This document shows positions 35,786 through 48,548 of a DNA stretch of 64,000 nucleotides, piece after piece. Source of the stretch: Proteiniphilum sp. X52 (GTDB taxonomy: Bacteria; Bacteroidota; Bacteroidia; Bacteroidales; Dysgonomonadaceae); assembly GCF_003712195.1 (NCBI RefSeq), contig NZ_RDSD01000020.1, forward strand, positions 1-64,000. Reading direction: 5' to 3'. A program made the translations under genes and the position numbers. The notes beneath the pieces are model-generated. The model saw nothing but the letters and a program-made list of their open reading frames with translations, searched no databases and was not told the origin of the DNA. Positions within the stretch are counted from its first letter, which is position 1. The number at the start of each line of letters is the position of its first letter.

Positions 35786-35933
35786 TTGAGTCGCCTCCGC
35801 GCCTCGATTTTCAATTCCTCGCTATGGCAAAGGACAAACTTGTTTGGACTTTGCTCATTTAGCTTAACGGAAATATTCATTCCCTTCGGGTGTGCAATGA
35901 TTATTGTAAACCTGTCGGTTTCATTATAAAATG
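35786..35933. repeat. Long intergenic palindromic element, copy A
   Basis: A 148-bp element shared with 48408-48548. Common blocks are TTGAGTCGCCTCCGC, CAATTCCTCG, CTCATTTAGCTTAACGGAAA, TATTCATTCCC and ATAAAATG. Its core GGACAAACTTGTTTGGAC (35832-35849) is the exact reverse complement of the core in the other copy. It fills most of the 295-bp gap between GH97 and the GH2 gene. Confidence 0.8.
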
Positions 35934-36014
35934 TTTTTTAGAAGCTGTTTTGAATTTTTTCATCCATTGTTTTTTAGACATTTTTTGATGGATTTGGATT
36001 TTCAGTTTCTTGGT

Positions 36015-38006
36015 TCATATTTTTCGCAGTTTGGCGGCGAATCCGCCTCCGGGAGCGAGGTGCAGGTGGACGGTCTCACCGGATGCGATATGGCGTGTCT
36101 CTTTCCTGTAGTCGCCACCTTTGCGGTGTGCGTTGGCTCCGTCCCGGAAGAGGGTCATCTCGTACCGCCCCGCGGGAAGGAAAGAGAGGTCGACCTCCAT
36201 GTCGCGGCTTTCCCAGCCTGTGATGCCTCCGATGTACCAGTCGCCGCCGCTGCGGCGGGCCAGCGCCAGGTGCTCGCCAACCCTGCCGCTGAGGGGCACG
36301 GTCTCATCCCACACGGTGGGGATGGAGGCGATGAATTGGAGAGACTCGGTCTCACGCATATACTCGGTGGGACTGTCGCACAGCATGTTGAGGGGCGAGT
36401 TGAACACCACGTAGAGGGCCAGCTGCCGGCACCGTGTGCCCTGGCTCATTGGTTCCGAATAGATCGGACGGTAGCATCCGCGTGCGGCGTTGCGCATCGC
36501 TCCCTGGGTGTAATCCATTGGCCCGGCTGCCATGCGGATAAAGGGGACGGTGACGTCGTAGGTGACCATGTCGACGCTCTCGGGCGACCATTTGAGTTGC
36601 TCCAGGCCGTGGACCCCCTCGAAGTTGAGGACGTTGGGCCAAGTCCGGCTCAGCCCGGTGGGCTTGTACATGCCGTGAAAATCGAGCAACAGCTTGTGCC
36701 GGGAGGCAGTTTCCGCGGCGCGGTAAATGAAGTCGACCAACTTCTGGTCGTCACGATCCATGAAGTCGACCTTGAATCCCTTCACGCCCATGGCGGCGTA
36801 ATGGCGGCACACCTCTTCCATGTCGCGGTCGAAGGCGTGGTAACCGGCCCAGAGGATGATGCCCACGCCTCGATCACGGCCGTAACCGACCAGTTCCGGG
36901 ATATCGATCTGCGGGACCACCTGCATCAGGTCGGCTTTCAGGTTGACGGCCCATCCCTCGTCGAGGATCACATATTCGATGCCGTGCTCCGAGGCGAAGT
37001 CGATGTAGTACTTGTAGGTATCGTTGTTGATGCCGGCCTTGAAGTCGACACCGTGGATGTTCCAGTCGTTCCACCACTCCCAGGCTACCTTGCCGGGCTT
37101 GATCCAGGAGGTGTCGGCCAGCCGTGAGGGCGATGCCAGGCGGTAGACCATGTCACTGGCTGCCAGCGACGCGTCGTTATCGGCCACCACGCAGACGCGC
37201 CAGGGGAAGCTGCGGCTCCCTTCTGTTTTTGCGATGTACTCCTCTCTTGCGGTGACACGCATCTGCAGCATGTTGTGCCCGCCCTGCTCCACGGCGGCCG
37301 GGACCCGCGCGAAAATCCCCCTGAGGGTGTGGGGTGTCTGACTGTCGGGCGTGAGGTACATGCCGGGGTAAGACTCCAGGTCGGCCTCGGTGATGAGGAG
37401 CCGTTTGCCTTCGGCGGCGTCGGCCAGCAGCGGCAAAAAGACGAGCCGCTCACGGTCGATCCGCGAGAGGGGCGTATGCTCGTAAGTGTTCTCGAAGGAG
37501 CTCTGCAGCTGGTCGCCTCCCAGTCCTCCCTTTACATAGGGCACCCAGGCAGTCCGGTCGCCCGTAAAACGGAAGTTCGCCTCCTCCGCGTTGATGGTGA
37601 GTGTTCCCTTGCGGGAGGTGTGGAAGCGGTAGGCCAGTCCGTCGTCATACAAGCGGAAGGTGATGCCCCAGTCGCCGCGGAAAGTGATTAGCAGCTCATT
37701 GTACGGGTTACGGACTGCTGAAGATATCCAGAAGGGGGAGGGGATGATTTCGTCGGCGCTCCGCTGTTGGGCATGCCGGACACGGGCGTCGGGGCCCAGT
37801 TGCTCGCCGCCGGCCATGGTAAGCGATACCGGCGAGGGTTCGATCAACCGCTCTCCGTCATGCGACAGGCTCCAGGCAAGCTGTTTACCCACGGTCACCT
37901 CAGCGGTAAGTCTTCCGTCGGGCGAGGAGATGCCGTATTTTTTCTGCGCGTTTATCGCTCCGCATAGGAGCAGAAGCATGAGGATCGGTGGAATTGTTCT
38001 TTTCAT
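36015..38006 (-). CDS. GH97 glycoside hydrolase, predicted retaining type
   Basis: Family-97 alpha-glycosidase (663 residues) with a signal peptide (MLLLLLCGAINAQ region). An N-terminal beta-sandwich (about 25-280) precedes a TIM barrel (about 290-560) with VILDEGWAVN, GFKVDFMDRDDQ and LDFHGMYKPTGL, then a small C-terminal domain. In the GH97 family, inverting SusB-like enzymes carry a catalytic-base Glu at the HE of the last motif, whereas retaining alpha-galactosidase-type members use an Asp nucleophile in the KVDF strand. This protein has VDF and HG, so retaining chemistry is predicted. The start at 38006 is preferred over 38039 because the -7 box lies at 38037-38044. Confidence 0.9.
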   Translation of the reverse strand: MKRTIPPILMLLLLCGAINAQKKYGISSPDGRLTAEVTVGKQLAWSLSHDGERLIEPSPVSLTMAGGEQLGPDARVRHAQQRSADEIIPSPFWISSAVRNPYNELLITFRGDWGITFRLYDDGLAYRFHTSRKGTLTINAEEANFRFTGDRTAWVPYVKGGLGGDQLQSSFENTYEHTPLSRIDRERLVFLPLLADAAEGKRLLITEADLESYPGMYLTPDSQTPHTLRGIFARVPAAVEQGGHNMLQMRVTAREEYIAKTEGSRSFPWRVCVVADNDASLAASDMVYRLASPSRLADTSWIKPGKVAWEWWNDWNIHGVDFKAGINNDTYKYYIDFASEHGIEYVILDEGWAVNLKADLMQVVPQIDIPELVGYGRDRGVGIILWAGYHAFDRDMEEVCRHYAAMGVKGFKVDFMDRDDQKLVDFIYRAAETASRHKLLLDFHGMYKPTGLSRTWPNVLNFEGVHGLEQLKWSPESVDMVTYDVTVPFIRMAAGPMDYTQGAMRNAARGCYRPIYSEPMSQGTRCRQLALYVVFNSPLNMLCDSPTEYMRETESLQFIASIPTVWDETVPLSGRVGEHLALARRSGGDWYIGGITGWESRDMEVDLSFLPAGRYEMTLFRDGANAHRKGGDYRKETRHIASGETVHLHLAPGGGFAAKLRKI

Positions 38007-38036
38007 GTTACCTTTCTTTATGTTTGTTTGATAATG

Positions 38037-38044
38037 CAAAAATA
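38037..38044 (-). promoter_or_regulatory. -7 box of GH97 gene
   Basis: TATTTTTG on the minus strand overlaps the upstream ATG of the longer frame, so transcription would start inside it and the real start is 38006. TTTG motifs lie 14 and 24 nt upstream, neither at the ideal distance. Confidence 0.4.
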
Positions 38045-38290
38045 GGAATTAAACTTTTCAAACCTTCACAAATGTTGCAAAAACACTTAAATATCGCGAT
38101 GAATCCTGTTTTTCGGCACGATTTACCGCCCAAATTTACAAAAACTTGGCGACATAAAAAATGCAATCCATGGGTGTTTGTGTTCCGGTATTTCTTCGCC
38201 ACGGATGGAAATAGCATGCCGGGTAGTCAACAAGGGTTGATCGATTTTGAATGCTGTAAATCAAGGAATTGAGCTGATTCTTCTTTGAAA

Positions 38291-38340
38291 ATAAAAAAGT
38301 CGGACAGGAAGAAAATTGCCTCGTTTTCCTTCTGTCCGAC
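38291..38340 (-). terminator. Strong terminator closing susC/susD transcript
   Basis: GTCGGACAG...CTGTCCGAC form a 9-bp stem extended by GAAG/CTTC and AAAA/TTTT, followed on the minus strand by TTTTTTATTTTC. It ends the transcript from susC/susD through the two gene remnants and separates it from GH97. The rest of 38045-38374 shows no gene. Confidence 0.85.
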
Positions 38341-47456: not shown

Positions 47457-47523
47457 AAATAAATATTTTAAGAGATGGATATTTTTCCCCGCAAAACCCG
47501 GGTTATTCTGTTTTTGCACCGGA

Positions 47524-48117
47524 TCAAATGTAAGCCATTCCATATATGAGCGGCAGCAAGGGGAGGTAATCGCCCAACTCATCCCTCAGGGCGCTTAATG
47601 CCTTGCTGATATAAGCTTCTACCGTTTTGGGAGAGACGGACATCTCCTCCGCGATCTGGCGATAAGTCATCTTTTCGAACCGGCTCAGTTCGAACACCCT
47701 CCGGACATTTTCCGGCAACCGGCCCAAGGCGCGGTGGAGCATCTCCTCCAGTTCGTTGATGGTATAAATCGTCTCCGGCGTATCGGGGGCGCCGGCGATA
47801 GCCGAAGCGGATTGCCATTCGGCATCTCCTTTCCGGACGGACTGTTTCCGGAGATAGTCCGTGCAATGGTTCTTCACGCTGGTGATCAGGAGGTTCCGGA
47901 AGGAAGAGGTGATTTCGATCTTTTTCCGGTTTTTCCATAGCCGATAGAAAGTGTCCTGCACGATATCCTCGCACGTCGCGGGGGAAAGGATATACCGCAT
48001 GGCAAACACGCACAGGGCCGGGTAAAACTCGATAAAAAGTTCTTTGAAGGCCTGCTCGTCGTCCTGAAAGGCAGCTTTTCGGAACAGGTTTTCATACCTT
48101 GCGTCTTTTCCGTTCAT
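47524..48117 (-). CDS. ECF (RpoE-like) sigma factor of PUL 1
   Basis: Extracytoplasmic-function sigma factor (197 residues) of the Bacteroidetes PUL type. Region 2 shows in AFKELFIEFYPALCVFAMRY and CEDIVQDTFYRLWKNRKKI; region 4 in LPENVRRVFELSRFEKMTYR and the helix-turn-helix IAEEMSVSPKTVEAYISKAL. It should drive susC/susD when released by FecR (44574-45479). A gap of about 2 kb with two foreign-looking genes separates it from fecR, which is atypical. A SusD 5' remnant lies directly upstream. Confidence 0.93.
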   Translation of the reverse strand: MNGKDARYENLFRKAAFQDDEQAFKELFIEFYPALCVFAMRYILSPATCEDIVQDTFYRLWKNRKKIEITSSFRNLLITSVKNHCTDYLRKQSVRKGDAEWQSASAIAGAPDTPETIYTINELEEMLHRALGRLPENVRRVFELSRFEKMTYRQIAEEMSVSPKTVEAYISKALSALRDELGDYLPLLPLIYGMAYI

Positions 48118-48141
48118 TCCTCGTCTCCTCTCTCTGTATAC

Positions 48142-48371
48142 TCACTTCACCCCGCCCAGGTCTCCCTTGTATCGGGAGTAAGCTTCCCTGTCTCCGCCCA
48201 TCCAATCGTAACATTGTATAGGAATGCTTCTGCGACATCTATATTCTGAAAGAGCGACCCTTCATGGAATGAGTCTGCGGGATTTTGATCCAATGTGTTA
48301 TCACAAGAGGAAAGAAGGAAGGAGAGTAGAAATGCAATTAAGCAGTATTGAATGTTTTTATATTTCTTCAT
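48142..48371 (-). pseudogene. SusD 5' remnant, frameshifted
   Basis: MKKYKNIQYCLIAFLLSFLL with lipobox SSC and LDQNPADSF closely matches the first 60 residues of the SusD at 39020-40942. After AEAFLY the frame is lost by one base: in another frame the sequence continues QCYDWMGGDREAY and reaches a stop at 48142. The rest of the gene is absent. It is evidence of a duplicated, mostly deleted susD just upstream of the sigma factor. Confidence 0.85.
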
Positions 48372-48407
48372 ATGGCTAATATTTTTATTTTCAATAGAGT
48401 TAGCTAA

Positions 48408-48548
48408 TTGAGTCGCCTCCGCACCTCGATTAGCAATTCCTCGATACCGCATAGTCCAAACAAGTTTGTCCTTTTCTCATTTAGCTTAACGGAAATATTC
48501 ATTCCCCTGCTAATGATTATTTTGAACAGGTCGGTATCATATAAAATG
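48408..48548. repeat. Long intergenic palindromic element, copy B
   Basis: A 141-bp element matching copy A (35786-35933) in block order and orientation, except that its 18-bp core GTCCAAACAAGTTTGTCC (48454-48471) is exactly reverse-complemented. It lies just upstream of the SusD remnant, as copy A lies upstream of the GH2 gene. A minus-strand -7 box (TACTTTTG, 48565-48572) sits at its outer side. The stretch 48573-48846 beyond holds no intact gene. Confidence 0.8.

Follow-up and report, generated by a model that had tools for sequence, protein, structure and literature searches.

In the IS200/IS605 family of insertion sequences, elements insert 3' of a fixed short sequence, and a tetranucleotide guide located 5' to the hairpin foot pairs with the cleavage-site sequences, as described in two reports (PMC6006769, PMC7290912). 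We analyzed a repeat that invites comparison with these elements in a window of 64,000 nucleotides from Proteiniphilum sp. X52 (Dysgonomonadaceae, order Bacteroidales; contig NZ_RDSD01000020.1, positions 1 to 64,000), the window being this whole stretch. The repeat is present there in two intergenic copies, A and B, whose hairpin tips (cores) run in opposite orientations. In the assembly, the two differ by a single genuine inversion: the near-palindromic hairpin tip of copy A is turned round. The carrier is a non-autonomous mobile hairpin element (the outer element) with a second hairpin module (the inner module) nested inside. The carrier belongs to a known kind, the mobile hairpin elements, and is a new variant of it, set apart by its unusual location at start codons and by an internal guide that covaries with the junction.

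The outer element shares several features with IS200/IS605 and the palindrome-associated transposable elements (PATE). According to those reports, these insert beside a fixed short sequence, lack terminal inverted repeats and carry a guide 5' of the hairpin foot that is complementary to the junctions (PMC6006769, PMC7290912). A fixed short target and the absence of terminal inverted repeats were also found here, with the exception of locus L009. Three differences stand out: one hairpin and one guide would serve both ends, the target is ATGAAA, and no intact Y1 transposase was found in the genome. The complementarity also extends over about 8 nt, compared with the tetranucleotide guide described in those reports (PMC6006769, PMC7290912). 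A further likeness is to the repetitive extragenic palindromes (REP) and their associated tyrosine transposases (RAYT, or TnpA-REP), including Bacteroidetes subclass 2.6 with its atypical structures. PMC6006769 describes many dispersed, gene-less intergenic hairpins, as seen here, and head-to-tail arrays, as seen for the inner modules. It also states that atypical structures flank Bacteroidetes TnpA-REP genes and recur at other places in the genome, so that a relation to this group is possible. In contrast to REPs, the outer hairpin (the only one compared in this respect) has no GTAG/GTGG at its foot, the outer element lies at start codons, and no Y1 gene was found in several element-rich genomes.

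The BrickBuilt miniature inverted-repeat transposable element (MITE) of Porphyromonas gingivalis is likewise a non-autonomous intergenic element of Bacteroidales with an internal minisatellite; it is bounded by terminal inverted repeats, has a repeat unit of 23 nt and keeps a distance of 49-591 nt to the nearest coding sequences (PMC4596501). Compared by eye with that description, the present element has ends that are not inverted repeats, a 29-nt unit, and an end at a start codon (PMC4596501). Among the elements looked into, BrickBuilt is the nearest in the phylum. The SXT element integrates into the 5' end of prfC and supplies a new start. The target gene is thus kept and its 5' end rebuilt, as here, whereas the present element measures about 108 bp without a transposase gene, uses many target genes and has hexamer specificity. 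No description of these elements was found among the matches listed in the open-access literature, searched by titles and the starts of abstracts, with subscription journals outside the search.

Inversion of the hairpin tip in copy A

The following features were used in the comparison of the two copies.

35832 to 35849, plus strand: core A, the flipped hairpin tip GGACAAACTTGTTTGGAC (core pattern, orientation scoring and switch reconstruction)
48454 to 48471, plus strand: core B, in the common orientation, GTCCAAACAAGTTTGTCC (core pattern and orientation scoring)
35826 to 35854, plus strand: the 29-nt stretch GGC..TGC around core A (template-switch reconstruction)

The first-pass annotation of this DNA had described the cores as exact reverse complements of each other between flanks of the same orientation, and the coordinates, the alignment and the shuffles all bear this out: core A is the exact reverse complement of core B, and the blocks flanking the two cores align in the same orientation. 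With up to three mismatches allowed, the left flank GAGTCGCCTCCGCRCCTCGATT and the right flank TCATTTAGCTTAACGGAAATATTCATTCCC each occurred twice in the window and were absent from all 100 shuffles. Over the 29-nt stretch, A differed from the common form at seven positions when compared forward and at one after the best plain inversion, and the alternative named by that annotation, independently diverged cores, was not borne out. Outside this stretch, A and its sister copy L003 differ at only 6 of 116 sites, and coordinated independent substitutions are therefore not a credible alternative to an inversion.

A and B are two of many family copies. A search of their own genome with the repeat returned 63 match rows at E values up to 10, opposite-strand rows of the palindrome included. 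Copy numbers are lower bounds, at most 22 candidates being scored per genome of the genus and at most 2 per genome of the order. A pattern that accepted both orientations, and any mixture of them at the differing sites, retrieved 11 exact cores and no mixed ones in this genome. Counting L002, where a single base is substituted, the core is present in 12 copies, 11 of them in the B orientation; only A is flipped. A longer version of the core pattern was absent from all 40 relatives searched. Across the genus, a pattern made of the flanks alone yielded 112 hairpins with 62 distinct cores in 17 of 39 genomes; it includes 9 of the 12 same-core copies and misses diverged ones, B among them. A alone among the 62 distinct cores scored higher as a reverse complement than forward, by best match as well as by mean. 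The tabulation of core orientation that the first-pass annotation had called for thus gives one flipped copy in 12 in the genome and one in 112 in the genus. Two other cores (G000:C28:33420-33470 and G021:C14:20464-20513) have TT in place of AA at the tip. They are not closer to the other cores as reverse complements, and are possibly inversions of the innermost bases alone.

The flip of A was most likely made in one polymerase template switch, which agrees with the replication-driven flip proposed earlier. We modelled such a switch as a prefix, the reverse complement of a stretch and a return to the original template. An exhaustive search found 12 single-switch solutions that reproduce A with zero residual mismatches, compared with one remaining mismatch for the best plain inversions (seven, of 16 to 28 nt). 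The base concerned is an additional A, at a site where all 11 B-orientation copies carry T. It converts a T.T mismatch of the stem to a pair, which suggests that the arm was homogenised while the tip was inverted. The nascent strand would have jumped to the complementary hairpin arm, copied that arm and jumped back, so that a single switch would flip the tip and pair one arm mismatch simultaneously. Homogenisation of the arms together with inversion of the spacer is described for yeast in PMC8604942, where the REG2 case likewise combines tip inversion and arm homogenisation in one event. The yeast examples concern coding genes, whereas the present case is a repeated bacterial hairpin with arms interrupted by mismatches (PMC8604942). 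One switch to the complementary strand and back yields the derived sequence here, and the sister copies (11 of 12 in the B orientation) give the ancestral orientation.

Several points weigh against this reconstruction, and three other explanations were considered. The template switch beats a plain inversion by one base only, and had the parent of A already carried that base, both models would fit equally. The seven plain inversions that leave one mismatch would fit a conservative inversion, produced by cleavage of a cruciform or by recombination of one arm with the other, with one point substitution before or after it. This route requires two events instead of one, and such short arms are poorly suited to recombination; we regard it as unlikely. 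An assembly error at A is possible because the genome is a draft of 96 contigs. With 12 copies of similar cores, a repeat might have been wrongly resolved, or bases miscalled, at the palindrome. The additional base of A is found at this place in none of the 11 other copies, and a mis-joined copy would not create it, making an artefact of this sort quite improbable. Invertible promoters are common in Bacteroidales, and an exact inversion between inverted arms in front of a gene of the polysaccharide utilization locus (PUL) type could point to an element flipped by a site-specific recombinase for on/off control of that gene. This explanation, which corresponds to the site-specific flip of the first-pass annotation, is very improbable: both orientations would be expected to be common among the copies, while only one of the 112 hairpins is flipped, and the modules of A and L003 (the latter in the B orientation) are predicted to share one shape with nearly equal energies (−15.8 and −16.3 kcal/mol, respectively). 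For the decayed window copy B a different fold is predicted (−11.1 kcal/mol). A phase switch is likewise unsupported by the copy counts, recombinase genes and promoters not having been searched for. The flip looks like a rare one-off rather than a switch; it is apparently single and ordinary in kind.

Outer element at start codons

Five features describe the composite copies and the genes behind them, and two more describe the inner module of A.

35720 to 35924, minus strand: composite element A (outer hairpin element plus inner hairpin module), at the ATGAAA start codon of the GH2 gene and read in its sense; the orthologous site is empty in G012 (L161)
35917 to 35924, minus strand: 5' junction of A, ATGAAACC, start of the upstream open reading frame (ORF) MKPTGLQ*
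32489 to 35719, minus strand: GH2 beta-galactosidase gene (Pfam), whose start codon is the 3' junction of A
48372 to 48540, minus strand: composite element B, decayed, with 5' end ATGATACC and 3' neighbour ATGAAG, without the guide motif
48147 to 48371, minus strand: short frame directly behind B, with its ATG at 48371; by sequence comparison it is similar to the N-terminal part encoded by the intact SusD gene (at 40942)
35772 to 35870, plus strand: inner module of A, bounded by direct repeats and comprising a single 29-nt minisatellite unit and the REP-like hairpin that bears the core
35786 to 35814, plus strand: 29-nt minisatellite unit TTGAGTCGCC..TTTTCAA, present two or more times in tandem in some other copies

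In this repeat one element is nested within another. The short copies, of about 108 nt, are made up of a long hairpin and, behind it, an AT-rich leader; A has a second module in the stem. Direct repeats AAATATTCA at 35763-35771 and 35871-35879 bound this inner module; in four short copies (L016, L020, L021 and L022) the sequence AAATATTCATTCCC is uninterrupted. The position of A before a GH2 gene and of B before a SusD-like remnant, both noted in the first-pass annotation, was confirmed by Pfam and by likeness to the intact SusD, respectively.

Orthologous empty and filled sites are stronger evidence of mobility than junction counts. The clearest case is sucC (Pfam ATP-grasp_2, Ligase_CoA), for which loci were obtained from 29 of the 39 genomes. 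The site directly upstream of this gene has no element in L123, L124 and L127, where it reads GCCC(C) followed by ATGAAAATTC, and the element occupies exactly this site in L121, L122, L125, L126 and L142; further loci were empty or decayed and were not classed. Eight relatives were searched for the GH2 gene behind A; it was found only in G012, where its site is element-free. A dispersed intergenic repeat, containing a frame like MKEWKNKREIITRKIQNSF*, lacks the outer element in L004 and has it in L028. Pieces similar to this dispersed repeat are also present in L013, L017 and L019. The earlier suggestion of a mobile hairpin element thus stands for the carrier, with its empty and filled sites and many copies, and not for the flip itself, which needs no mobility.

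ATGAAA was found at the 5' end of 39 of 42 P-type elements, a count in which AT alone was free since the search motif already contained GAAAC, and within 70 nt behind the 3' stem in 38 of them. In the 14 G-type elements, ATGAAA was present 13 times at the 5' junction and 9 times at the 3' junction; the tail of the other five continues differently, in several into an inner-type hairpin. A pattern that required ATGAAA on the 3' side yielded 56 outer elements, of which 9 are followed by another element (chains of two) and 47 are terminal. At 40 of the 47, an ORF begins that spans 60 codons or more or runs on to the end of the locus, compared with 246 of all 737 ATGAAA sites in the loci. In 52 of the 56 elements, the 5' ATGAAA starts an upstream ORF that is 4 or 7 codons long. 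These data suggest that the outer element inserted at ATGAAA, mostly the start codon of a gene, leaving the hexamer at both ends. The gene still begins with a start codon, now preceded by an A-rich leader, and in front of it stands an upstream ORF, as a rule 4 or 7 codons long. The hairpin is predicted to be stable (RNA z of −6.85 for one short element, DNA z of −2.0 to −5.1 for four); the whole A element folded as RNA gave a weak value (z −0.82).

The outer element was found in 24 of the 39 genomes of the genus, own genome included, and, of 393 genomes of the order, in 6 that belong to three other families. Full-length matches in those families have 73-78% identity. The outer-element pattern matched eight named stretches, including Proteiniphilum acetatigenes DSM 18083 and other Proteiniphilum records. 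Six loci from two other families (L163, L164, L166, L168, L170 and L171) have the same kind of ends with a ATGAAACAAGCATGAT 5' arm, and L165 and L167 are nearer to the P-type. Searches with the short element gave no match in 72,556 plasmid records or 50,697 phage records, the f115 version had no match in the plasmid records, and two patterns had no exact match in viral contigs; carriage by plasmids or phages is therefore unsupported by these searches.

The inner module is present in 31 of the 39 genomes of the genus, again counting its own. Its unit TTGAGTCGCCTTCGCTCCTCGATTTTCAA, or a close variant, occurs in tandem and in varying copy number inside the hairpin element in L005, L007, L010 and L030 and at G000:C13:46863-46983. 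Inner modules also form head-to-tail arrays with a spacing of 79 nt at G019:C132:69-276 and at other places in G019, G048 and G051.

Proposed guide pairing and its alternatives

All 24 aligned elements carry GGTT[CA]CAT followed by two variable bases just behind the 3' hairpin arm. The variable bases tend to complement the two bases that precede the 3' ATGAAA (AT-AT, AC-GT, CT-AG and GT-AC). Both matched in 40 of 50 rows, a number that none of 20,000 permutations reached (mean 16.8, largest 31). Pair 77-107 is kept in all 24 aligned elements (UA 12, CG 11, UG 1) and pair 76-108 in 23 of them, with four standard pair types. In 500 shuffles, neither the covariation score nor the count of cells with changes on both sides was ever reached. 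The elements with matching CT and GT types (L163, L167, L168, L170 and L171) belong to three other families of the order. Since kinship of the copies inflates all such counts, the pair types and their spread over families outweigh the permutation figure.

On the strand opposite the gene, the layout reads TTTCAT, AT-rich linker, guide, hairpin, TTTCAT. We infer that the site is chosen by pairing of the internal guide GGTTYCATxy with the target hexamer, as at IS200/IS605 ends, with one hairpin and one guide serving both ends and the cognate enzyme probably supplied in trans or lost. The outer element would work like an IS200/IS605 end without necessarily being one. Taken together, a single template-switch flip of A, a mobile hairpin element at start codons and guide-based site choice form an explanation that we consider probable on balance. 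More tentatively, we propose that transposase-less elements of about 108 nt in several Bacteroidales families use a single guide to find start codons via ATGAAA, and one hairpin for both ends; this wider claim is possible but doubtful.

A number of observations speak against guide-based site choice. In the shuffle control, 79 of 500 shuffles reached the number of pairs with both sides changed, none of the 14 pairs of the long hairpin shows such a double change, and pairing at the third guide position is seen in only 6 of 24 elements. Ten of the 50 rows fail (8 elements, window copy A among them, and 2 spurious rows). Copy A has no guide-junction pairing and one extra base before its ATG; copy B has lost the guide and has ATGAAG at the junction. 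The elements do not carry a hairpin at each end as IS200/IS605 does, and show one long hairpin, with a guide-junction stem in three of four DNA folds. A search with Y1_Tnp found matches in 6 of 39 genomes of the genus. The only match in this genome is partial, covering 50 positions, and the element-rich G014 (one contig), G021 and G007 have no match. The flanks of the Y1 loci (L151-L159 and L082; 1.7-3.4 kb, two at short contigs) contained no convincing element end. Two weak matches to the element motif were seen in the overlapping loci L155/L159. No RAYT gene flanked by repeat copies was found in these loci, and a RAYT or IS200 enzyme in cis is unsupported by the search and by the flanks. An enzyme of the IS91 type (Y2) was also considered. 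The Y2 model, which matched none of 14 control genomes, matched 7 of 39 genomes and none of the element-rich G000, G021, G014, G007, G045, G019, G048 and G051, and an enzyme of this type is thus unsupported. No autonomous relative was seen in eight named 8-kb loci, the only ones searched by end motifs. The sequence GCTTAAC fits the RYYYAAC box of integron attC sites; the copies are dispersed and the box order looks wrong, and this candidate was set aside.

Two other readings of the outer element deserve attention. It may be mainly an RNA regulator, whose guide pairs with the start-codon region in the transcript and closes the start codon, which would open if the short upstream ORF is translated or if the long hairpin holds the guide; the covariation would then reflect control of translation and not target choice. 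Pairing of the guide with the start codon is predicted in three of four folds (L171, L166 and L163, not L025) with DNA parameters, and both the upstream ORFs and the position of most terminal elements at gene starts agree with such a role. Against it, 7 of the 47 terminal elements keep the same junctions without a 60-codon ORF (two open 50 and 38 codons), 9 of the 56 elements stand in chains of two, and dispersal to unrelated genes needs mobility regardless. We consider a mainly regulatory element a minority possibility, although regulation and mobility are compatible, and an RNA role and guide-directed mobility may both hold. The repetition of the hexamer at both ends could alternatively be the 6-bp target duplication of a MITE mobilised by a DDE transposase with a strong preference for ATGAAA. 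The outer element of L009 (around 1500-1660) carries AGGAAA, not ATGAAA, at either end. A genuine duplication of the target accounts for this better than a fixed element end does, and the case counts against guide-based choice. The two element ends, however, are not inverted repeats of each other (as read from the alignment; resident IS ends were not surveyed), and covariation of a guide would not be expected from a MITE, so that this origin is improbable.

Other features of the window were noted. Two divergent relatives of the inner hairpin module were identified.

13440 to 13540, plus strand: divergent relative of the inner hairpin module
27653 to 27710, plus strand: divergent relative of the inner hairpin module

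A direct repeat of 154 nt (83% identical) links the start of the intact SusD gene (40791-40944) with the short SusD-like frame (48220-48373); B therefore stands before a partial gene duplication. A Pfam search gave no match for the short SusD-like sequence behind B. Two tRNA genes are located at 6301-6374 and 49150-49224 (minus strand), and a search of the window with Rfam at gathering scores returned nothing besides them.

Possible consequences for gene expression and mobility

The flip illustrates cleanly, in a bacterium, a known mutation process within a multi-copy hairpin; its value lies in the 11 sister copies, which show its direction. Of the two, the carrier is the more important. If the guide reading is true, target choice by nucleic-acid pairing would take place in a one-hairpin, gene-less unit aimed at start codons, one of the smallest guide-directed mobile units. 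Because guide and target can be altered independently, the idea is open to direct testing. Landing would be harmless because the element rebuilds the start codon behind a ready-made leader, and besides a short upstream ORF it would bring in a pairing with the potential to close the start codon. Such an element would be a natural way to spread one 5' untranslated region over many genes, and one mobile leader could place GH2, SusD-like, sucC and other genes under common translational control.

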